This document shows, piece after piece, positions 46,777-56,612 of a stretch of 60,938 nucleotides of DNA. Numbering within the stretch: position 1 is the stretch's first letter; every line of letters starts with the position of its first letter. Source of the DNA: a candidate division WOR-3 bacterium (GTDB lineage Bacteria; Hydrothermota; Tepidihabitantia; Tepidihabitantales; JBDRVQ01). Location: contig JBDRVQ010000006.1 of the NCBI GenBank assembly GCA_039801905.1, positions 1 to 60,938 of the forward strand, in the 5' to 3' direction. Under the pieces are notes generated by a model. It was not told the DNA's origin and ran no database searches. It worked only from the letters and a program-made list of their open reading frames with translations. The position numbers were made by a program, and so were the translations under genes.

Positions 46777-46782
46777 GAAATG

Positions 46783-47721
46783 ATGTTGGAAACTACTTAT
46801 AGGGAAATAAAGACACCTCTAACAGAAGACCCGAATTATGGGTTTGTTTCGGGAAGAATCCGGTTTCGGGAGAAATTTTTATTGAGAGAGAGGGATTACG
46901 AAGGGCTCATCCAAGCCACTTCGGAAAAAGATTTCCTTTCCCTCCTCTCTAATACCCCTTATGCCCAGTTTAAGGGAAAAGACCCCTTGGGGGTAATCCA
47001 AGCGGCGGAATGGGAAAATCACCTCTTCTTGAAGGAATATGCCCACTCACTAGACCTATTAAAAATCCTCCTCTTCCCCTTTGACCTCCACAATCTGAAA
47101 ATCTATCGTAAGGGGTTAAAATTGAGAAAGGACCTCTCTTTATTTTCTTCCCCCTTCGGTTATTTTTCCTATCCTAATTTCCCTTCAGAGATTGCCCAAT
47201 TAGCCCAAAATCCCTCCCTCTCCGACGATCAGTTGGAGGTGGAACTCTTTTCCCGAATTTATTCCCTCGCCCAAAAATTTCCCTTTCTGGCTCAATACCT
47301 CTCCCTTCTCGCCGATGTGAGTAATCTCTTAACTCTATTAAGGGTGATGAGGTTCGCACTCTCTCCCTTTCAATTTCTCCCTCATGGTTATTTCACCGAA
47401 AAATTTCTTTCTTCCCTCACTCCCCTTCCTTTAAGGGAACTTCCGGAGAGATTCCCCTCTCCAATTTCTGAGATCTTAAAGGAGGCAATCCCCTTTATCA
47501 GCGAAGGCGATTTTGGTTTTTTGCGTTTAGAAAAAAGGCTCTACCATCTCCTCCTCTCTTTTCTCCGAACAGCCGGTCAATCTTTATTTGGTTATGAGGT
47601 TCTTTCTGCCTATTATCTCTTAAAGAGACAAGAGATTGAAAACCTCCGTCGCATTTACCTTTCTCGCTTTTTCTATCAGATCACCAATTTAACAATCCTT
47701 AAGGAATTGATAATAGTATGA
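46783..47721 (+). CDS. atpC: V/A-type ATPase subunit C
   Basis: Central-stalk collar subunit (V-type C, yeast d-like) that joins the rotor shaft to the membrane ring. It has the N-terminal YGFVSGRIRFRE and the C-terminal LLKRQEIENLRRIY motifs of the family and is almost all helical. Length 312 is a little short of the usual 330-350. The start at 46783 agrees with the promoter geometry. It overlaps the next gene by 4 bp. It is the first gene of the cluster; subunits I, K and E, which commonly precede C, are not upstream, where repeat locus B lies instead. Confidence 0.88.
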   Translation: MLETTYREIKTPLTEDPNYGFVSGRIRFREKFLLRERDYEGLIQATSEKDFLSLLSNTPYAQFKGKDPLGVIQAAEWENHLFLKEYAHSLDLLKILLFPFDLHNLKIYRKGLKLRKDLSLFSSPFGYFSYPNFPSEIAQLAQNPSLSDDQLEVELFSRIYSLAQKFPFLAQYLSLLADVSNLLTLLRVMRFALSPFQFLPHGYFTEKFLSSLTPLPLRELPERFPSPISEILKEAIPFISEGDFGFLRLEKRLYHLLLSFLRTAGQSLFGYEVLSAYYLLKRQEIENLRRIYLSRFFYQITNLTILKELIIV

Positions 47722-47960
47722 TTAAAGTTATCGGGGAAAGAAATAAGATCGCCTTCTTTTCTCTTTTCGGTTTCAAAACGATTCACTGGGTAAAAGAAGA
47801 AAAGCAGGAACTGATTGAAGGTGAAGAGAAACTTATAATTTTAGATGAGGAGATTCCAGAACTGGAAGAAATCGTAAAAAGAGGAAAAACCTTCCCTCTC
47901 CTCTTCGCCCTTTATCCAAGAAGAGGTAAGGGAATATTGGAGAAATTGCTATGGAAGTAG
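47718..47960 (+). CDS. atpF: V/A-type ATPase subunit F
   Basis: Small Rossmann-like stalk subunit of 80 residues, shorter than the usual ~100. The N-terminal MIKVIGERNKIAFFSLFG matches the family start (V-x-G-x-x-x-x-x-x-F-x-L-x-G), with LIILDEEI and a C-terminal FPLLFALYPRRGKG where most have a PxIxxIP turn. It overlaps C by 4 bp and A by 10 bp. The position between C and A is the standard one for F. Confidence 0.82.
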   Translation: MIKVIGERNKIAFFSLFGFKTIHWVKEEKQELIEGEEKLIILDEEIPELEEIVKRGKTFPLLFALYPRRGKGILEKLLWK

Positions 47961-49687
47961 GGAAGATTGTTAAAGTCTCTGGGCCTTTAGTGGTCGCTCG
48001 GGATATCCCAAATGCCCGAATGTATGATATCTGTCTGGTTGGGGAGTACAAATTGGTGGGGGAGATTATCGGTTTAAGGGGAGATTCTGTCTTTATTCAA
48101 GTCTACGAAGAAACCGGCGGCTTAGGACCGAATGACCCGGTCTTCCCTACCCACCAACCCTTAACTGTTGAGTTAGGACCGGGATTAATTGAAGCCATAT
48201 TTGATGGGATTCAAAGACCTCTCTCTCTCTTAAAAGAGAAGAAGGGAGATTTCATTGAAAGGGGAATTTCGGTCCCGGCCTTAAATCGGGAAAGAAAGTG
48301 GTATTTCAAACCAGTAGTAAGAGAGGGGGAAGAGGTAGAAGGTGGTGATATTATTGGAGAAGTTCCGGAAACAAGTCTTGTCCTCCATAAAATAATGGTT
48401 CCCCCGGGGATTAAAGGAAAGGTAATTGAGATTAAGGAGGGGGAATTTAATGTGGAAGAGACCGTTTGCCTCCTAAAAAATCCGGAAGGAAAAGAGATCA
48501 AACTCACTCTGATGCAAAGGTGGCCGGTGCGAATCCCCCGGCCGGTAAAGAGAAAACTGCCACCAAAAGAAAGTCTCCTCACCGGACAGAGGATATGTGA
48601 TACCTTCTTCCCTATCGCTAAGGGAGGAACCGCCTGTATCCCTGGACCATTCGGCTCAGGCAAAACAGTAATGCAACACCAATTTTCTAAATGGGCGGAT
48701 GCAGAAATTATCATCTTTGTCGGTTGTGGAGAAAGGGGAAATGAGATGGCATCGGTACTTTTAGAATTTCCAGAACTGAAAGACCCAAAATCCGGAGAGC
48801 CTTTAATGAAGCGAACCTGTCTCATTGCCAATACTTCCAATATGCCGGTTGCCGCCCGAGAAGCATCCGTCTATACCGGAGTGGCAATTGGGGAATATTT
48901 TCGGGATATGGGATACTCGGTTGCCTTACAAGCGGATTCCACATCAAGATGGGCAGAGGCGATGCGGGAAATCTCGGGTCGCCTGGAAGAGATGCCAGGG
49001 GAAGAGGGTTATCCCGCTTACCTTGCCGCCAAAATCGCGGAATTTTACGAAAGGGCGGGAAAGGTAATCTGCTTGGGTAAAGATAACCGGCTGGGGTACC
49101 TTTCGATTATCGGTTCTGTCTCACCCCCTGGGGGTGACCTTTCTGACCCGGTGGTTCAGGCGACATTGAGAGTGGTCAAAGTTTTCTGGAGCCTGGAAGA
49201 TAAATTGGCATTCAAAAGACACTTCCCGGCTATTAACTGGCTAAATTCCTATTCTCTTTACTTGGATGATGTGAGGGATACTTTTGATGGGGTATCTTCC
49301 GAATTCTTTGAATTATCAAGAGAAGCGATGGCGATTTTGGAGAAAGAAGCCGAATTGGAGGAGATTGTCCGACTTATTGGTAAGGATGTCCTCATCCCGG
49401 AGGACCGCTTACTTTTGGAAATCGCCCGAATGATCCGGGAAGATTTCCTCCACCAATCCGCCTTTGACCCTATTGACAGTTTTTCTTCCTTCCGGAAACA
49501 GTTCTTGATGCTTTCCACCATTATCAATTTTTATCGTCTCTCCTTGGCTAAGATAGCAAGCGGCAAAATTACCGTAGAAGAGATTGAGCGCCATCCCCTA
49601 AGGGAAAAGATTGCCCGGATGCGCTACTTTTCGGAGGAGGAATTTTCTAAATTGAAAGAGGAGATGAACCAGATCTTTTCTGAATAG
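47951..49687 (+). CDS. atpA: V/A-type ATPase catalytic subunit A
   Basis: Catalytic subunit that hydrolyses or makes ATP. P-loop GPFGSGKTV near 235, GCGERGNEM near 259, and the catalytic-arginine helper SNMPVAARE near 296. [18 protein letters not shown] and the A-subunit-specific bulge domain (residues ~120-190, PPGIKGKV) are present. Length 578 is typical. The ion (proton or sodium) cannot be read without the K ring. Confidence 0.96.
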
Positions 49688-49701
49688 GAGGAGAAAAATT
49701 T

Positions 49702-51072
49702 ATGGCAATCGTCACTCATCGGAAAATAAGTCAAATCCAAGGTCCTCTCCTTCTCGCCGAAGGGGTAGAAGGGGTAAAATATTTAGAACTGGTAGAAATC
49801 CTTTTACCCACCGGTGAGAAAAGACAAGGACAAGTTTTGGAAGTGGATAAGGACAAAGCCTTAGTTCAAGCCTTTGAAGGAACCCAGGGGTTAGAACTTG
49901 CTCAATCAAAGATTAAATTTTTGGGCCGGGGTATAACCATTCCCCTATCCCGGGAGATTCTCGGCCGGGTCTTTACCGGATTGGGTAAACCCCGGGACGG
50001 AGGAGAAGAAGTGATTCCAGAAGAATTCCGGGATATTAACGGAGCGCCAATCAATCCTTATTCGCGAGAATATCCAATTGAATTCATACAAACCGGTATC
50101 TCCACCATTGATGTTTTAAATACCTTAGTCCGGGGGCAGAAACTACCAATTTTCTCTGGTTCCGGTCTTCCCCATAATCGTTTAGCGGCCCAGATCGTGA
50201 AGCAGGCAAAGGTCTTAGGTAAAGAAGAGGAATTTGCCATTGTCTTCGGGGCAATGGGTATTACATTTGAAGAAGGAGAATTTTTCCTCTCTTCCTTTAA
50301 AGAAGAAGGTGCTTTAGAGAGAAGTGTCGTTTACTTAAACTTGGCGGATGAGCCAGCGATTGAAAGATTAGCTACTCCCCGCTGTGCCTTAACCGCAGCG
50401 GAATACTTAGCCTTTGATTGCGGAATGCATGTCCTGGTGATTCTCACCGATATGACCAATTATTGCGAGGCCTTAAGGGAAATTTCTGCAGCCCGGAAAG
50501 AGATACCAGGTCGGCGCGGATATCCAGGTTATCTCTATTCCGATTTGGCGAGTATCTATGAGCGATGCGGACGGATAAAGGGAAGAAAAGGTTCCATCAC
50601 TTTGATGCCAATTTTAACTATGCCGGAAGATGATAAGACCCATCCGATTCCGGATTTAACGGGTTATATTACCGAGGGGCAGATAATCTTATCAAGGGCC
50701 CTTTTGAAAAAAAAGATTTACCCACCAATTGATGTCCTTCCCTCTCTTTCGCGCCTTCGCGACCGGGGGATTGGGGAAGGGAAAACAAGGAAAGACCATC
50801 CGGACTTAGCCAATCAACTCTTTGCCTGTTATGCCCGAGGCAAAGAGGTTGAGGAGATAAAGACCATCTTGGGAGAGGAAGCGCTTTCGGAAATGGATAA
50901 AGTTTATCTAGAATTTGCCAATCAGTTTGAAGAAAAATTTGTTGCCCAAGGCGAAGAGGAAAACCGTGCCATTGAAGAGAGTCTCGCGATTGGTTGGGAA
51001 CTATTAAAAATCTTCCCGAGGAGTGAATTGAAAAGAATCCGAGAAGAAATCTTGGAAGAATATTTTAAGTAG
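49702..51072 (+). CDS. atpB: V/A-type ATPase regulatory subunit B
   Basis: Non-catalytic nucleotide-binding partner of A. In place of the P-loop it reads [15 protein letters not shown], as in B subunits. [35 protein letters not shown]-type blocks, quoted here only in part, are intact, as is [19 protein letters not shown]. It starts after AGGAGG 9 bp upstream. Length 456 is normal. Subunit D, which usually follows, is absent; a SIMPL protein comes next. Confidence 0.96.
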
Positions 51073-51081
51073 GGAGGGAAA

Positions 51082-51765
51082 ATGTTTGAAGAAGATAAAA
51101 GGTTTGATATCCGAAATCGCCTCTTTTATCTTTTGGCGATATTTATCGCTGGACTTCTTACCTATCTCTTCCTCTCCGTCATTTACCAATTCCAAACATT
51201 AAAAAGTCGGACCGAAAATAGAGAAATTTCCTTTTCCGGAGAGGCAAAGATAATTCCTAAACCAGAGTTTGCCCTTCTCAACTTTGCCGTTATCAGCCGG
51301 GGATTAAAAATGGAGGAAGCGCAAAGGATTAATGAAGAAAAACGGGATACCATTTTTAACGCCCTCTCCCTTTTTGAACTGCCAAAAGAAGAAATTAAAG
51401 AGATAAAATATAATATCGCAATGGTTCCGGACACCGCTCAGGGGATGCGGGTGCAAAAATTTCAGATAACAAAAGAGTATGAAGTAAAGATTAAGGAGAT
51501 AAATAAGATTCCGGAAATGATAAAAAAAATTGAAGAAAGAGGGGGAGTCTTAACTTCCGAAGTTAAATTTCTCTTGGAAGATATTGAAAAATTAAGGGAA
51601 GAAACCCGTTCCCTTCTTATCTCTAAGGTGAGAGCAAAAGCAGAAAAAAGGGCAAAAGAATTAGGGATCAGTTTAGGAGGAATAGTGGGAATGAAAGAAG
51701 AAATCATCCCCCAAGAGAATAACGAAGAACTCCTAAAAATAACCTTAACCTATACCATTAAGTGA
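51082..51765 (+). CDS. SIMPL (DUF541) domain membrane-anchored protein
   Basis: 227 residues. An N-terminal membrane helix (~12-32) is followed by the SIMPL domain: ISFSGEAKIIPKPEFALLNF, which is a typical opening (G-x-G-x-V-x-x-x-P-D), then helices and strands with KAEKRAKELGISLGG, the signature near the end. Family members (Oxidative-stress defence/BP26-like) form envelope rings of unknown activity. It lies 9 bp after atpB with a GGAGGG site, occupying the place of the missing D subunit. Confidence 0.82.
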   Translation: MFEEDKRFDIRNRLFYLLAIFIAGLLTYLFLSVIYQFQTLKSRTENREISFSGEAKIIPKPEFALLNFAVISRGLKMEEAQRINEEKRDTIFNALSLFELPKEEIKEIKYNIAMVPDTAQGMRVQKFQITKEYEVKIKEINKIPEMIKKIEERGGVLTSEVKFLLEDIEKLREETRSLLISKVRAKAEKRAKELGISLGGIVGMKEEIIPQENNEELLKITLTYTIK

Positions 51766-51775
51766 AGGAGAAGAT

Positions 51776-53638
51776 ATGAAAAAACTTTTCTTAATTTTCA
51801 CATTATTATTTATCTTTAATAGAGCATTGGCTCAGGAAGGTGAGGATAATGCCCTTTATCTCTTTGACTCTACCGAAATCTTTCTCAAACCCGATGCTTC
51901 TGGCAAAGAAATTAACCATTGTTTAATAAAGATTCTTACCCCGACCGGGGCGAAAAAATTCTCTTCTGCCTCTTTCCCTTATATCACCCTTTATGATACC
52001 GTGGTGGTGAAAAAAGCGGTTGTCATAAAACCAGATGGGAAAATAATCAAAGTAAGAAAAGAAGATATTGAAGATCTGCCAATGCCCGCTTGGCCTGGTT
52101 CAAAATTTCTCATCCCGAACCTGCGGATTGTTAAAATTACCTTCCCCGAAGTAGAAGAAGGTTGCGCGGTTGAATTCTTATTAGAAAGAATAACCCGCAA
52201 TCCACCTTATGATTCAGTTTTTGACTACTGGACCCTATTTGAAGGTTTTGAGCCGATTAAAATTAAAGTGCTAAAAATTCACTTTCCAACTAATCTCAAA
52301 CCGAAATGGGTAGTAAAAAATGGCACAATTACTGAGGAAAAGAGAGAAAAGAAAAATGAGATTGAATATATCTTCTCTGCCAACGATGTTCCAAGGATTA
52401 TTGAAGAACCGGCAATGCCGCCCTTAGAGGATATCGCCACTAAATTGGTTCTCTCTACGGCCAACTCCTGGGAAGCAATCTCCCGCTGGTATTATCAACT
52501 CTGCGAACCAAAACTTCTCCCGGATGAGGAGATAAAAGAGGAGGTAAAGAATCTCTTAAAAGATGCTCGCTCAAGAGAAGATTCTCTCCGTTTTCTTTTT
52601 GAATTTGTGAAAAGGGAAATTCGTTATGTGGAAACGAGGTTGACCGGTAGAAAAGGCGGCTACGAACCAGCACCCATCACCTTTACCCATAAAACTCGTT
52701 ACGGCGTCTGTCGGGATAAAGCCGCGCTTCTGGTCGGGTTATTAAGAGAAGCCGGGTTTAAAAACTCTTATATGGTCTTAACCAATCCCAGCAATCGGGT
52801 GGAAAAGGAAATTCCCGCCCCCAGTCAATTTAACCACGCCATTGTCGCCTTAAAAGAAGGTGAAGAATTTATCTTCTTTGACCCAACCGTAGAATGGTCG
52901 GTTGAATTCCTTTCCCCGATTGAAGATGAGAGAGAAGTTCTTATCTGCACCCCCGAAGGGAGAGATTTAGAGAAAACTCCAGAAAGACCCGGTTCGGTAA
53001 ATTTTATCCAGGTTAATTCAGAAGTTAACATTCTCTCTGATCGCACCGGCCGAATTTCTCTCCAAATTGTCGGGAGGGGGGTAATTGATATGGCATTACG
53101 CAATCTCATCAAAATGCTTCCTCGAGAAAGGCTTTCCGAAGTCTTCTTACAGTCTTTTAAGGCAAATTATCCCCAAGCGCATTGTGATTCCATAAAGACA
53201 TCGGACCCTGAGGATTACAAAAGCCCAATCACTCTAAATCTATTCTTAACCATTCCGGAATACGCAACAAAGATCAATAAGGAATGGCACATCGGTGGGG
53301 GAATGAGTAGTTTTCAATTTTGGGACGGCAATCCGTTTAGCACTGAGGAGCGAAAATATCCCATCTACTTTAATTTAAAAAACCTCTCCGAGGCGAAAAC
53401 TAAAATCACCTTTCCGAAAAACTTAAAAGTGAAATATCTTCCTAAAAACTACGAAAAGAGAACGGAAGATATGGAGGCAAAGATGACTTTGAAAGTAGAA
53501 AGAAATACTATCACCTCTACTACTATTTCGGCGATTACTTCTCGGCTCATCCCTCCCGAAAGGTATAAAGAGAATAAAAAAATGATGGAAGAGTTAGAAC
53601 AGTTCAGCCGGGAAAAGATAATTTTGGAGGAGAAATGA
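51776..53638 (+). CDS. DUF3857/transglutaminase-like exported protein
   Basis: A signal peptide (MKKLFLIFTLLFIFNRALAQ) is followed by a DUF3857 beta domain (~45-215) and a transglutaminase-like domain. Its triad is intact: Cys312 (RYGVCRDKA), His354 (FNHAIVAL) and Asp369 (FFDPT). The rest is a beta-rich C-terminal domain. Such proteins are thought to act as periplasmic proteases or crosslinking enzymes. Length 620 is typical. It overlaps the next gene, its paralogue, by 4 bp. Confidence 0.85.
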   Translation: MKKLFLIFTLLFIFNRALAQEGEDNALYLFDSTEIFLKPDASGKEINHCLIKILTPTGAKKFSSASFPYITLYDTVVVKKAVVIKPDGKIIKVRKEDIEDLPMPAWPGSKFLIPNLRIVKITFPEVEEGCAVEFLLERITRNPPYDSVFDYWTLFEGFEPIKIKVLKIHFPTNLKPKWVVKNGTITEEKREKKNEIEYIFSANDVPRIIEEPAMPPLEDIATKLVLSTANSWEAISRWYYQLCEPKLLPDEEIKEEVKNLLKDARSREDSLRFLFEFVKREIRYVETRLTGRKGGYEPAPITFTHKTRYGVCRDKAALLVGLLREAGFKNSYMVLTNPSNRVEKEIPAPSQFNHAIVALKEGEEFIFFDPTVEWSVEFLSPIEDEREVLICTPEGRDLEKTPERPGSVNFIQVNSEVNILSDRTGRISLQIVGRGVIDMALRNLIKMLPRERLSEVFLQSFKANYPQAHCDSIKTSDPEDYKSPITLNLFLTIPEYATKINKEWHIGGGMSSFQFWDGNPFSTEERKYPIYFNLKNLSEAKTKITFPKNLKVKYLPKNYEKRTEDMEAKMTLKVERNTITSTTISAITSRLIPPERYKENKKMMEELEQFSREKIILEEK

Positions 53639-55494
53639 TTAACCTCTTATTTCTCCTCACCATCATTAGTAACGATTTTCTCACCGATGCCTCCGCGGTA
53701 ATAGAGAAAGAGATCACACACCTTCAGGTGGGAAAAGATTTCTCCCATAAGGAAGAAAAGGAAATTTCCATCTTCATCCTCACCTACCGCGGAAGGGAAG
53801 TCTTTGGCAATCTCTTGGAAAAATATAACAAAGGAATTGAAGAACTAAAAATTCTGGAAGCAAAAACTAAAAAAAAGACCGGGGAGGAAATCGTCCCCGA
53901 GGAAAAGGCGATTGGTGATTTAAGTACTGTTGAGAAGTTTCTTGCTCCCAAATACGCTAACAGTCGAATAAAAAGTGTCGCTTTCTCCGCGGTGGAAGAG
54001 AGCGCGCGGTTAATTTATCGCTCCGAAAAAATCAATAAAGAAAAGAAGAAGGAATTTTTTGGCAGCAAAATTTTCCAAAAAGAGGAACCAGTACTTTACA
54101 GCGAACTTCTCTTAAAAACCCCCTTCCCGATAAAATATCAAACGATTGGCGAGGTAAAAGTAAAAGAAAAAAGGGAGGGCGATTATTTCTTTTACCAGTT
54201 CTTTTGCGAATCCCTTCCCCGAGTTAAGTTTGAACCAAACCGGGTAGCAATCAGTGAAATCTCACCCCGGGTCTATTGGACAAATCTCAAGGATTGGCAA
54301 GAAGTATGGGATTTATTGAAAAAGGATTTCTACCCCAGTGTGGTGATCAAGGGAGAGATAGAGAGAAAAGCCAAGGAATTAGCAGAAGGAAAAGGGAAAA
54401 TAGAAGCGCTTCGGGAAATTTATAATTATGTGACGAAAAATTGGCGGGATATCCCCCTAACTATCCAGGATGCCGGATTAAAGCCAACAAAGGCTTACGA
54501 TGTTTATAATCAAAAATATGCCGATAATAAAGACAAATGCCTTCTTCTCCTCTCAATGCTCAAAGCGGTGGGAATTGATGCTTACCCCGGTTATGTTGCC
54601 CAAGAGATAATAAAAGATATCCCATCTCCCACTTATTTCTTTTACTTAATTTTAGTCTTAGAAATGGGCAACCGTTATCTATTTTTAGACCCGACATTTC
54701 CGGAAAAAGTCTCTTTGAGCCTCTCTTTCCCAAGTATCCTTGCCAATTATAATGAAGGATTTCCTATCCTTCCTGATTTAATTGGCCGGGAGGTCTTTTG
54801 GGTTAAACCCGATACTTTTTTCTTCCTTTCTATTCCCTATCCCGAACCCGAAGAGATTACTTCGGAATTTTTTTATACCCTTTCCCTTGATTCCCTTGGC
54901 AACTTAGAAGGCGAAATAAAAGCCACCCTCAATGGAATTTCAGCAATTGAATTAAGGGCGAATTATAAAGATAAAACGGAAAAGGAAAAAGAGATTGCCT
55001 TAAAAGGAATTATCTCACAAATTAAGACGGGTGCCAAACTCTTGAATTGGAGTATAGAAAATCTGCGCGAACCTCAAAAGCCGGTTCAAATTTCTCTCCG
55101 CTTCGCTGCTGAAAGATACGGCATCCGAGAAGGCAAAAGGATTAATTTCCACCTTCCCCCCTATCTCTTCTTCCCTAACCTTTCTTCTTATTTTACCCTG
55201 CCAGAAAGAAAATACCCATTAGATATCAAAATCCCCACTTCCTATAAGTACTATTTACAACTTACTATTCCCGAAGGGTGTGCTATATATTACTCACCAA
55301 AGGATTTTGCCTTTGCTGATTCCCTAATCGGATTAACAATTTCTTCCCGGAAAGATATCCCAACCTTCCAGTTGAATAAAGAAATAAAATTTCCCAAAAG
55401 GCGTTACCTACCGGAAGAATATGTTAGTTTGAAAAACGCTTGGTCAGATTTTGCTAAACCGGAGAACGGATTTATCATTCTAAAAAAGATTTAA
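53635..55494 (+). CDS. DUF3857/transglutaminase-like paralogue without catalytic Cys and His
   Basis: 619 residues with a short signal sequence (LLFLLTIIS). It has the same architecture as its neighbour: a beta domain, then a transglutaminase fold at ~260-355. The catalytic Cys position reads Asn298 (KYADNKDKC), and the His position Tyr337 (FFYLILVL). Asp352 (FLDPT) is kept. The following Cys302 is not at the active-site register. It is probably a non-enzymatic partner or regulator of the active paralogue, to which it is translationally coupled (4-bp overlap). Its end overlaps the convergent gene by 4 bp. Confidence 0.75.
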   Translation: MINLLFLLTIISNDFLTDASAVIEKEITHLQVGKDFSHKEEKEISIFILTYRGREVFGNLLEKYNKGIEELKILEAKTKKKTGEEIVPEEKAIGDLSTVEKFLAPKYANSRIKSVAFSAVEESARLIYRSEKINKEKKKEFFGSKIFQKEEPVLYSELLLKTPFPIKYQTIGEVKVKEKREGDYFFYQFFCESLPRVKFEPNRVAISEISPRVYWTNLKDWQEVWDLLKKDFYPSVVIKGEIERKAKELAEGKGKIEALREIYNYVTKNWRDIPLTIQDAGLKPTKAYDVYNQKYADNKDKCLLLLSMLKAVGIDAYPGYVAQEIIKDIPSPTYFFYLILVLEMGNRYLFLDPTFPEKVSLSLSFPSILANYNEGFPILPDLIGREVFWVKPDTFFFLSIPYPEPEEITSEFFYTLSLDSLGNLEGEIKATLNGISAIELRANYKDKTEKEKEIALKGIISQIKTGAKLLNWSIENLREPQKPVQISLRFAAERYGIREGKRINFHLPPYLFFPNLSSYFTLPERKYPLDIKIPTSYKYYLQLTIPEGCAIYYSPKDFAFADSLIGLTISSRKDIPTFQLNKEIKFPKRRYLPEEYVSLKNAWSDFAKPENGFIILKKI

Positions 55495-56612
55495 TTTATT
55501 AAAAATATAAACTTTTTCTTTATTATAGTTTTATCATTCTGTCCGATTAACCAATAAAGGCCCGATCTTACCTTCTGCCCATTTTCATCTTTTCCATCCC
55601 AAATGATTTCCCTTTTATGCGAAAAGGTGCGAATTAATCTCCCTTCTGAATTGTAGATATTTACCTTCTTGACCAAAAATGAAAGCACCCAAAATTGCAC
55701 AATAGAATTCGCGGGATTGGGAAAAATTTTTATTGAAGAATAAGTTGGTAATTGTCCACTCCCTTCTATCCCGCCCATCGGTTTTCTTGTTACATAATAC
55801 ATAATAAAAATACTATCCTTTAAAATAACCGCGGGGTCTTTCACATACCGACTTTCTAAACCATTGGTAGAATCAATCTGCAGACGATAGCCAGGTTCTA
55901 AAACCCAATTTTCCCCATCCAACGAAAAGATGGAGCGGATGCCAGAACTATTGGGATTATTATTAAAACCATAAAACCGATAACCACCCTGGGGGAGAGA
56001 AATTCCATTAGCCATCATAAGGCTCTCTATAGAAAAATTTGGCCTTGGGAAAAATAATAAGCCATCAGAAGAATGGGCGTGCCAGTTCTCACCCGGTGGA
56101 GCACCACCGGCAAAATATTGTAAGGTATCACCAGTCCAGAGGAGCGAAGGGTCTAAAACTAGACTTCCAGGAATTTGAAAGCGAACCCCTTCTTCCAAGG
56201 TGAAGTTCAAACCGTCAAGAGAGATTGCCGAGTAAGTCTCTGGATTCCGATCACCAATTGGGTCACCGGTAAAGTAGAGGCGAAAGGTATCATTACGGAA
56301 AATAATATCCGGGTCACAAGGATGCCCAGGCCAAGTTTGGGTCCCAGGAATGACCACTTGGTAAAACCGCCAATTGTCAATCCCATTCGCGGAGATACCG
56401 ACCATAATTCCATCTCGGGTGTGGGTCCAAAGACCCTGAAAATAAACATAAACATTTCTATCCGGACCGACTAAGGCATCGGGCACATCTGCGGAATCAC
56501 TCATTATCAGATTTAACCTCTGCCAGTGCAAACCGTCCGATGAAATGGCAATCAAGAGCCGATTTTGCAAAGGCTGGGTGAAAATTAAACTCCAAAAAAG
56601 GAGGGAGAAAAT
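55491..56612 (-). CDS. Secreted glycosidase-like beta-propeller with T9SS sorting domain
   Basis: The mature part has repeated SxDGxxW/F units (SSDGLHWQRL, SLDGLNFTLEEG, SLDGENWVLEPG) with DP-x-hydrophobic strands (DPSLLW, DPAVIL), as in five-bladed GH43/GH130-like propellers. No catalytic set can be proved. The C-terminal ~85 residues are a FlgD-Ig-like T9SS sorting domain: IKIFPNPANS, IYNSEGRLI, WDGKDENGQKV and GLYWLI. No ATG, GTG or TTG gives a signal peptide. An ATT at 56612, 6 bp after AGGAG, would start a good one (FSLLFWSLIFTQP). The alternative is TTG at 56570, which removes the signal. It is the last gene of the ferredoxin-fhs-trxB operon, 9 bp after the previous stop. Confidence 0.65.
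   Translation of the reverse strand: MFSLLFWSLIFTQPLQNRLLIAISSDGLHWQRLNLIMSDSADVPDALVGPDRNVYVYFQGLWTHTRDGIMVGISANGIDNWRFYQVVIPGTQTWPGHPCDPDIIFRNDTFRLYFTGDPIGDRNPETYSAISLDGLNFTLEEGVRFQIPGSLVLDPSLLWTGDTLQYFAGGAPPGENWHAHSSDGLLFFPRPNFSIESLMMANGISLPQGGYRFYGFNNNPNSSGIRSIFSLDGENWVLEPGYRLQIDSTNGLESRYVKDPAVILKDSIFIMYYVTRKPMGGIEGSGQLPTYSSIKIFPNPANSIVQFWVLSFLVKKVNIYNSEGRLIRTFSHKREIIWDGKDENGQKVRSGLYWLIGQNDKTIIKKKFIFLIN

Follow-up and report, generated by a model that had tools for sequence, protein, structure and literature searches.

An active DUF3857-transglutaminase and its inactivated paralogue are conserved as a pair across many bacterial phyla

The gene pair

We analyzed a stretch of 60,938 nucleotides from a candidate division WOR-3 bacterium (contig JBDRVQ010000006.1 of assembly GCA_039801905.1, forward strand), referred to below as the window, with a focus on two adjacent genes for transglutaminase-like proteins. 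The first gene (51776..53638, plus strand) encodes P0001, the active subunit, a protein of 620 residues with a DUF3857 domain, a transglutaminase-like core that carries Cys-His-Asp, and a C-terminal region. The second gene (53635..55494, plus strand) encodes P0002, the pseudoenzyme subunit, which has 619 residues, consists of a DUF3857 domain, a degenerate transglutaminase core and a C-terminal domain, and has a predicted fold like that of PDB entry 3KD4. According to the open reading frame (ORF) coordinates, the genes share 4 bp, as claimed in the initial annotation. The overlap is a stop/start ATGA (53635..53638, plus strand), which makes translational coupling of the two genes likely.

The two proteins are paralogous nearly from end to end (BLASTP, 23% identity over 583 columns, E = 2e-20). 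The DUF3857 profile matched both above the Pfam cut-off of 24.6 bits, P0001 with 76.3 bits (3.8e-21) and P0002 with 41.5 bits (1.9e-10). For Transglut_core (cut-off 23 bits), P0001 scored above the threshold (25.3) and P0002 below it (17.4). DUF3858 gave a weak match in P0001 (16.3 bits, below the cut-off of 27) and no Pfam match in P0002. Among 42 proteins of the P0002 type, referred to as dead, Transglut_core matched 18 and DUF3858 matched 12 at an E-value of 0.01. In an NCBIfam search at the same E-value, neither P0001 nor P0002 was matched. A phmmer query of the PDB found no relative of P0001 at E-values up to 1, and for P0002 only one weak, unrelated row at E-values up to 10. A signal peptide was assigned to P0001 by eye. 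In the genome from which the window stems (1.70 Mb in 58 contigs, 96.6% complete), P0001 and P0002 are the sole two DUF3857 matches. The closest named relatives of P0001 are found in WOR-3 bins, which are placed in the Caldifarciminota in the NCBI taxonomy.

Catalytic residues

The triad that the initial annotation had assigned to P0001 is present in the translation. It consists of Cys312 (codon 52709..52711, plus strand, motif YGVCRDKAA), His354 (52835..52837, plus strand, motif FNHAIVA) and Asp369 (52880..52882, plus strand, motif DPT). Each of these residues was found in 64 of 64 active rows of the alignment, with the caveat on the invariance of Cys and His that most of these rows had been identified via active-site motifs.

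In P0002, BLASTP and multiple alignments place Asn298 (54526..54528, plus strand) at the lost Cys position, Tyr337 (54643..54645, plus strand) at the lost His position, and Asp352 (54688..54690, plus strand) at the third triad position, which is kept; these are the residues named earlier. Asn298 is the first residue of a predicted helix (298-311). No other Cys or His takes over in the site, since Cys302 lies four residues further on in the helix and no His is near. In the whole protein there are no more than three Cys (191, 302, 549) and as many His (29, 38, 506).

The Asn/Tyr pair, for which conservation in orthologues had been put forward as a check, is common only to P0002 and its closest relative (in genome G001). 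Another dead orthologue (in G029) has N/H, and elsewhere Q/S, P/G, P/D, S/W, V/T, S/K and other combinations occur. Over 63 dead rows, the Cys position is occupied by S, P, N, Q, V, T, C, D, A, Y, F, L, R or E, and the His position by twelve kinds of residue, His included. As the pair is not conserved in orthologues, we rejected the idea of a re-purposed Asn/Tyr site. More generally, P0002 might be a re-purposed enzyme with a new chemistry that depends on other residues, for example Asn298, and the D300-K301 dipeptide beside the site is indeed invariant in the 16 closest dead proteins. However, the wide variation at the Cys and His positions and the relaxation of the cleft columns (see below) make this reading very improbable.

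In some dead partners (loci L067, L068, L069 and L070), the site appears only half lost. Cys and Asp are kept, and His is replaced by Trp, or by Gly in L068. Three further loci are copies of these (L123 of L070, L135 of L069, and L147 of L067).

Pairing across genomes

In order to survey the pairing widely, a profile built from 13 active proteins was run against one genome per species; of 403 confirmed relatives, the best 80 were kept. Since two motifs of the active protein served to find these 80 loci, the active triad in them is partly a matter of selection, but the state of the partner is not. Of the records, 17 of 80 carry no phylum, and bin labels can err. A partner lay downstream on the same strand in 44 cases and was fused to the active protein in 31; three loci ended at a contig edge, and two had no such neighbor. 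In the latter two (L118 and L137, from genomes G076 and G087), the dead gene is present elsewhere in the same genome. The initially proposed coupling of active and inactivated paralogues is thus real and widely conserved, with a linked partner in 75 of these best 80 of 403 relatives and an intact triad in none of the 75 linked partners (44 downstream and 31 fused).

The order of the genes was constant, with the gene for the protein with the Cys motif upstream in all 44 two-gene loci. The genes overlapped or were spaced by up to 30 nt in 33 of these loci, and were within 222 nt of each other in 41. The widest gaps, 692-1,105 nt (L126, L132, L128), could accommodate an ORF of 60-288 residues. 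Cys-His-Asp was found in the upstream gene of 43 pairs and in none of the 44 downstream partners. The remaining pair (L131) has a split active ORF. In this stretch from a Stahlbacteria bin (L131:5980-7924, the same as L074:8853-10797), the active ORF consists of two overlapping frames next to a full-length dead partner, due to either an assembly error or a true break.

A nearer survey covered 120 genomes, namely the window's own and relatives, with each protein as query. P0002 matched in 51 genomes and P0001 in 49, and a dead-protein profile matched in 64 of 147 genomes of the phylum; in all three counts, the window's genome is included and a match to either paralogue is sufficient. The window and 40 stretches of the surveyed genomes, of which one was an earlier locus, yielded 79 homologous ORFs. 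They mostly follow one layout, with a gene for an intact triad upstream and a triad-less gene downstream. The exceptions are stretches with a single homologue (e.g. L095 and L098), one genome in which four active DUF3857-transglutaminase genes and one dead gene are arranged in tandem (L100:5857-16400), and the two genomes, G076 and G087, in which the genes are apart.

Since an active and a dead protein recur as a pair in many bacterial phyla, the dead copy appears to be required as a partner and not to be a relic. At least three dead rows each in the tree described below come from Verrucomicrobiota, Lentisphaerota, Kiritimatiellota, Cloacimonadota, WOR-3 and Myxococcota, and single cases from Calditrichota, Acidobacteriota, Planctomycetota and Bacteroidota.

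Natural fusions

Proteins that are fused in one lineage and separate neighbors elsewhere are a classical sign of physical association. The 31 fused ORFs encode 959-1,568 residues, mostly near 1,250, and belong to Verrucomicrobiota, Lentisphaerota, Kiritimatiellota, a single planctomycete and some bins for which no phylum is named. By profile scores, the N-terminal half resembles the active protein in 31 of 31 cases and the C-terminal half the dead protein in 30. In the exception (L180), the C-terminal half ends early at a contig edge, before the His column. All 31 N-terminal halves contain Cys-His-Asp, and none of the C-terminal halves has the Cys.

A structure prediction for one fused homologue, trimmed to 1,200 residues, had a mean predicted local distance difference test score (pLDDT) of 86.8 and a predicted template modeling score (pTM) of 0.72, with a low-confidence linker at residues 604-615. 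We estimate that a pTM of roughly 0.45 would be expected if the halves were placed independently of each other. The higher value points to a defined arrangement of the two halves in the model, but is no proof of it. The 3KD4 structure aligns to the dead C-terminal half.

The fusions bear on the possibility that P0002 is merely co-expressed with P0001, as a binding or scaffold protein of the periplasm that has a separate role in the same pathway and does not contact P0001 directly. The separate location of the genes in G076 and G087, where the dead gene sits with a gene for a DUF362 protein with a sorting tail and a DUF6263 gene, would be in line with such an arrangement. Natural fusion in Verrucomicrobiota, Lentisphaerota, Kiritimatiellota and a planctomycete, together with the placement of the Cys-motif gene first in every two-gene locus, speaks against it, and we judge it unlikely.

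Co-inheritance

A tree of 127 rows was calculated after removal of the catalytic columns. For the type found in the window, the active family was largely separate from the dead one, and the two sides of the tree mirrored each other, with myxobacterial, Verrucomicrobiota-group, Cloacimonadota, Calditrichota/KSB1 and WOR-3 groups recurring on both. For the 11 of 31 fused proteins that this tree holds, the N-terminal halves formed one clade and the C-terminal halves another (Shimodaira-Hasegawa-like approximate likelihood ratio test, SH-aLRT, 99 and 100). Distances between active proteins and between their dead partners were correlated over 61 pairs (r = 0.92), and none of 999 permutations reached as high a value. 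The active and dead trees had 44 of 58 splits in common, and dead-to-dead paths were 1.37 times as long as active-to-active paths at the median. The mirrored trees show co-inheritance rather than contact.

A second WOR-3 subfamily likewise has pairs of active and dead proteins. Six of its dead rows fell on the active side of the quick, 127-row tree. A more careful tree of 52 rows placed all dead rows except L097 outside the active group (branch support 91/89). These placements make one origin likely for most dead proteins, with at least one further inactivation possible. However, these trees are unrooted, have long branches and come with composition warnings, so that they do not prove that the dead clade originated only once.

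Selection and shifted constraint in the dead protein

The ratio of nonsynonymous to synonymous substitution rates (dN/dS) could be measured for two close pairs. It was 0.09 for the dead and 0.066 for the active protein in the two species with unlinked genes (G076 and G087), and 0.24 and 0.17, respectively, in the other pair. Synonymous sites were saturated when the window was compared with its nearest relative. In the close pairs, the dead protein is, by this measure, under purifying selection. P0002 could in principle be a decaying duplicate without function, and the loss of both catalytic residues would be expected in this case. The low dN/dS values, on which we rejected a decaying pseudogene, as well as full-length ORFs and conservation across phyla, leave this reading with hardly any credence.

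In order to locate the constraint, conservation in the active and dead proteins was compared over 590 columns. The fall in conservation was largest at the His column and fifth largest at the Cys column. Per column, the loss amounted to 0.87 bit in the transglutaminase core, 0.17 bit in DUF3857 and 0.32 bit in the rest of the protein (core versus DUF3857, Mann-Whitney p = 5e-14, with columns that are not independent). Of the 30 largest dead-specific gains, 16 fell into DUF3857, which accounts for 178 of the 590 columns, 3 into the core and 11 elsewhere.

Two signatures of the dead clade are located in the DUF3857 domain of P0002. The first (residues 58-65, 53806..53829, plus strand) comprises G/S/A58, D/E/N59, Y/F64 and N/D65; the second (residues 104-107, 53944..53955, plus strand) comprises Ala104 and Tyr/Phe107. 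Ala104 was found in 48 of 51 dead rows, and the commonest residues in 51 active rows were Lys (27) and Asn (19). Tyr or Phe at position 107 was present in all 51 dead rows, and the active rows had mostly Leu, Asp, Ile or Asn. The 12 dead rows of the second subfamily share the aromatic residue at position 107 in part (Tyr in 8), but not Ala104. Judging from these alignments, constraint in the dead protein has moved to the DUF3857 domain, so that the working surface of the pseudoenzyme is more likely the N-terminal domain than the old cleft.

The shift also bears on the role of the dead protein in a complex. It might act as an inhibitor or a substrate-like plug that contacts P0001 and silences the hydrolase until a signal arrives, without any help in catalysis. 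The genomic evidence would be the same for such an inhibitor, and periplasmic proteases with regulatory partners, such as LapG/LapD, are a known theme. However, the 31 fused proteins would tie the inhibitor permanently to the enzyme. Moreover, the most relaxed columns include those of the dead cleft and those of W227, Y272 and T354 (P0002 numbering), three positions with little or no variation in the active clade. This does not favor a conserved plug at the old site, and on balance we consider inhibition quite unlikely.

Structure of the pseudoenzyme

The structure prediction for P0002 indicated a confident three-domain fold (mean pLDDT 91.3, pTM 0.87). The helix that is expected to begin with the nucleophile begins at Asn298 in the model. 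The only full-length match of the model was 3KD4 (Z 33.0, 497 residues, 2.8 A, 16% identity), and the next match had a Z score of 10.8.

3KD4 (BDI_1141 from Parabacteroides distasonis) was released in 2009 as a "putative protease". Its sequence is that of a protein, here P0004, from residue 23 on. The P0004 gene is located 13 nt downstream of the gene for P0003, an active DUF3857-transglutaminase with Cys-His-Asp; this was the one Bacteroidota pair that was read. The Cys column of P0004 is Pro in both alignments, and the His and Asp columns are Thr/Ser or gap/Lys, but never His or Asp. In the careful tree, P0003 was placed among the active and P0004, on a long branch, among the dead proteins. 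3KD4 is the dead member of an active/dead pair, i.e. a pseudoenzyme, and the name under which it was deposited does not fit. Unlike P0002, it comes from the Bacteroidota, is about 90 residues shorter and has a gap in the C-terminal region.

The DUF3857 region of P0002 (residues 11-219) resembles chain E of human oligosaccharyltransferase complexes (Z about 10-11), which we take to be ribophorin I, and also the N-domain of M1 aminopeptidases (Z about 9). LapG (4FGO/4FGQ) and 3ISR share the transglutaminase-like cysteine protease core with P0002 (Z 9-10, about 130 residues). However, the matched chains are without DUF3857 as far as the alignment ranges show, and we know of no dead paralogue in this case.

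Neighboring genes and membrane anchoring

P0001 and P0002 close a tight run of genes on the plus strand (46780-55494) with gaps of at most 15 nt. The run opens with genes for V/A-type ATPase subunits (an AC39 family protein and two ATP-synt_ab proteins) and a SIMPL (DUF541) gene. The upstream V-ATPase genes were rejected as functional context, as no V-ATPase was found among the 25 most shared neighbor families listed; the contig of the nearest relative is too short to judge this neighborhood. On the minus strand, a convergent gene for a protein with a Por_Secre_tail/type IX secretion sorting domain (55491-56570) overlaps the end of the P0002 gene by 4 bp. Promoter and terminator scans performed no better than chance.

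A constant third gene beside the pair was also considered and rejected. A family of about 276 residues was present in 13 of 88 loci (4 of the 88 duplicate others), at a distance of at most two genes from the pair or from the dead gene. When the 13 members were compared with DUF6263, 10 scored above the cut-off and 2 below it (L105 and L114), and 1 was unmatched (L131). DUF6263 had no match in the genome of the window. The family could nevertheless act in the same pathway as the pair. In the species with unlinked genes (L082:6855-11713 and L084:1443-6341), the dead gene is followed by a gene for a DUF362 protein and then by one for a DUF6263 protein. The DUF362 protein bears a type IX sorting tail (scanned in L082).

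Lipoboxes were sought with a home-made rule. In 38 pairs of the first family, the active partner had a lipobox in 13 cases and the dead partner in none. In 12 pairs of the second subfamily, the dead partner alone had one in 5 cases and both partners in 1. The pattern of membrane anchoring is suggestive only.

Discussion

We propose that P0001 and P0002 form one cell-envelope machine, which consists of a secreted enzyme and a dedicated dead partner. This explanation appears reasonably probable to us, and we regard physical association of the two proteins as quite probable. The initial annotation had guessed that the dead protein serves as a regulator or complex partner. The role as complex partner is now backed strongly, if indirectly, by the surveyed loci, and the natural fusions and the mirrored trees favor it; contact and regulation are inferred.

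P0001 would be a DUF3857-transglutaminase that acts as a cysteine hydrolase or acyl-transferase and is either secreted or anchored in the membrane. After export, P0001 and P0002 would bind each other. The DUF3857 domain of P0002 (residues about 58-65 and 104-117) may provide a docking or substrate-presenting face, and its transglutaminase core would be mainly structural. Catalysis would take place only at Cys312-His354-Asp369 of P0001, with P0002 either activating P0001 or presenting the substrate. If the proteins associate, activation or substrate presentation is likelier than inhibition, because the fusions hold the halves together permanently.

Several observations weigh against the proposed machine, or at least against obligate pairing. 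Solitary relatives, with one homologue of at least 150 residues in each stretch of about 10-12 kb, were found in Aureibacter, Caballeronia, Sphingopyxis and Paraburkholderia plasmid records. They were judged on these neighborhood stretches, and a partner elsewhere in the genomes was not looked for. All four (from Pseudomonadota and a Cytophagales bacterium) have Cys-His-Asp, which implies that this type of enzyme does not always need a neighboring dead partner. In Paraburkholderia, another DUF3857 gene lies some 3.7 kb upstream of the solitary homologue. Adjacency and mirrored trees would also follow from shared operon inheritance, and the pTM of the fused model is indirect evidence for association. 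Of the 63 dead rows, 3 retain the Cys without the His and 11 retain the His, so that some dead clefts could still bind ligands. Finally, no substrate or assay for any family member was found in the literature searched.

With regard to the history of the family, a more specific scenario can be put forward only tentatively. A single event of duplication and inactivation may have given rise to the pair, either before Verrucomicrobiota, Lentisphaerota, Kiritimatiellota, Cloacimonadota, WOR-3 (Caldifarciminota) and Myxococcota spread or while they did so. The two genes may have been inherited as a pair since, with one fusion in the Verrucomicrobiota lineage and its allies. The pseudo-subunit would then be needed for activity and work via its DUF3857 domain. 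Taken as a whole, this scenario is possible, but doubtful.

Pseudoenzymes have been studied best in eukaryotes. In bacteria, inactive transglutaminase domains are already on record. RloB has such a domain with a genetic role (PMC12239564, PMC12096838). It shares its operon with an aspartic protease and an ATP-grasp protein and not with an active paralogue, and it has seven transmembrane helices. Helices of this type were not seen in the P0002 model, which has only a helix at the signal peptide (residues 2-10). Inactive N-terminal transglutaminase domains that have lost at least one triad residue have also been reported in polymorphic toxins, with peptide binding as the proposed role (PMC3482391). 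Unlike P0002, they are part of an RHS-repeat toxin protein, and the excerpt describes no active paralogue as partner.

A further parallel is the trypanosome AdoMetDC/prozyme system, in which an active enzyme and its dead paralogue form a functional complex and activation is reported (PMC5201418). In the P0001/P0002 family, the dead and the active paralogue co-occur across lineages. Activation was shown there, whereas for P0001/P0002 we infer it. The AdoMetDC/prozyme fold is unrelated to that of the transglutaminase pair.

In the literature accessible without subscription, we found no description of an active/dead DUF3857 pair, and the combination of DUF3857 and transglutaminase returned no papers. 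DUF3857 is mentioned in one paper for a gene adjoining lolA, and in a Vasohibin paper 3KD4 is named as a structure of the superfamily.

Parabacteroides and Akkermansia are cultivable genera, and relatives of the pair occur in both. With these genera, the naturally fused proteins and an experimental structure of one dead partner available, a direct test of the role of the dead twin is within reach. The pair also places a "domain of unknown function with PDB structure" in context. If the single-origin scenario outlined above is true, the pair would, to our knowledge, rank among the oldest and most widespread partnerships of an enzyme and a pseudoenzyme in bacteria, and a pseudo-subunit of this kind would have been in the PDB as a "putative protease" since 2009.

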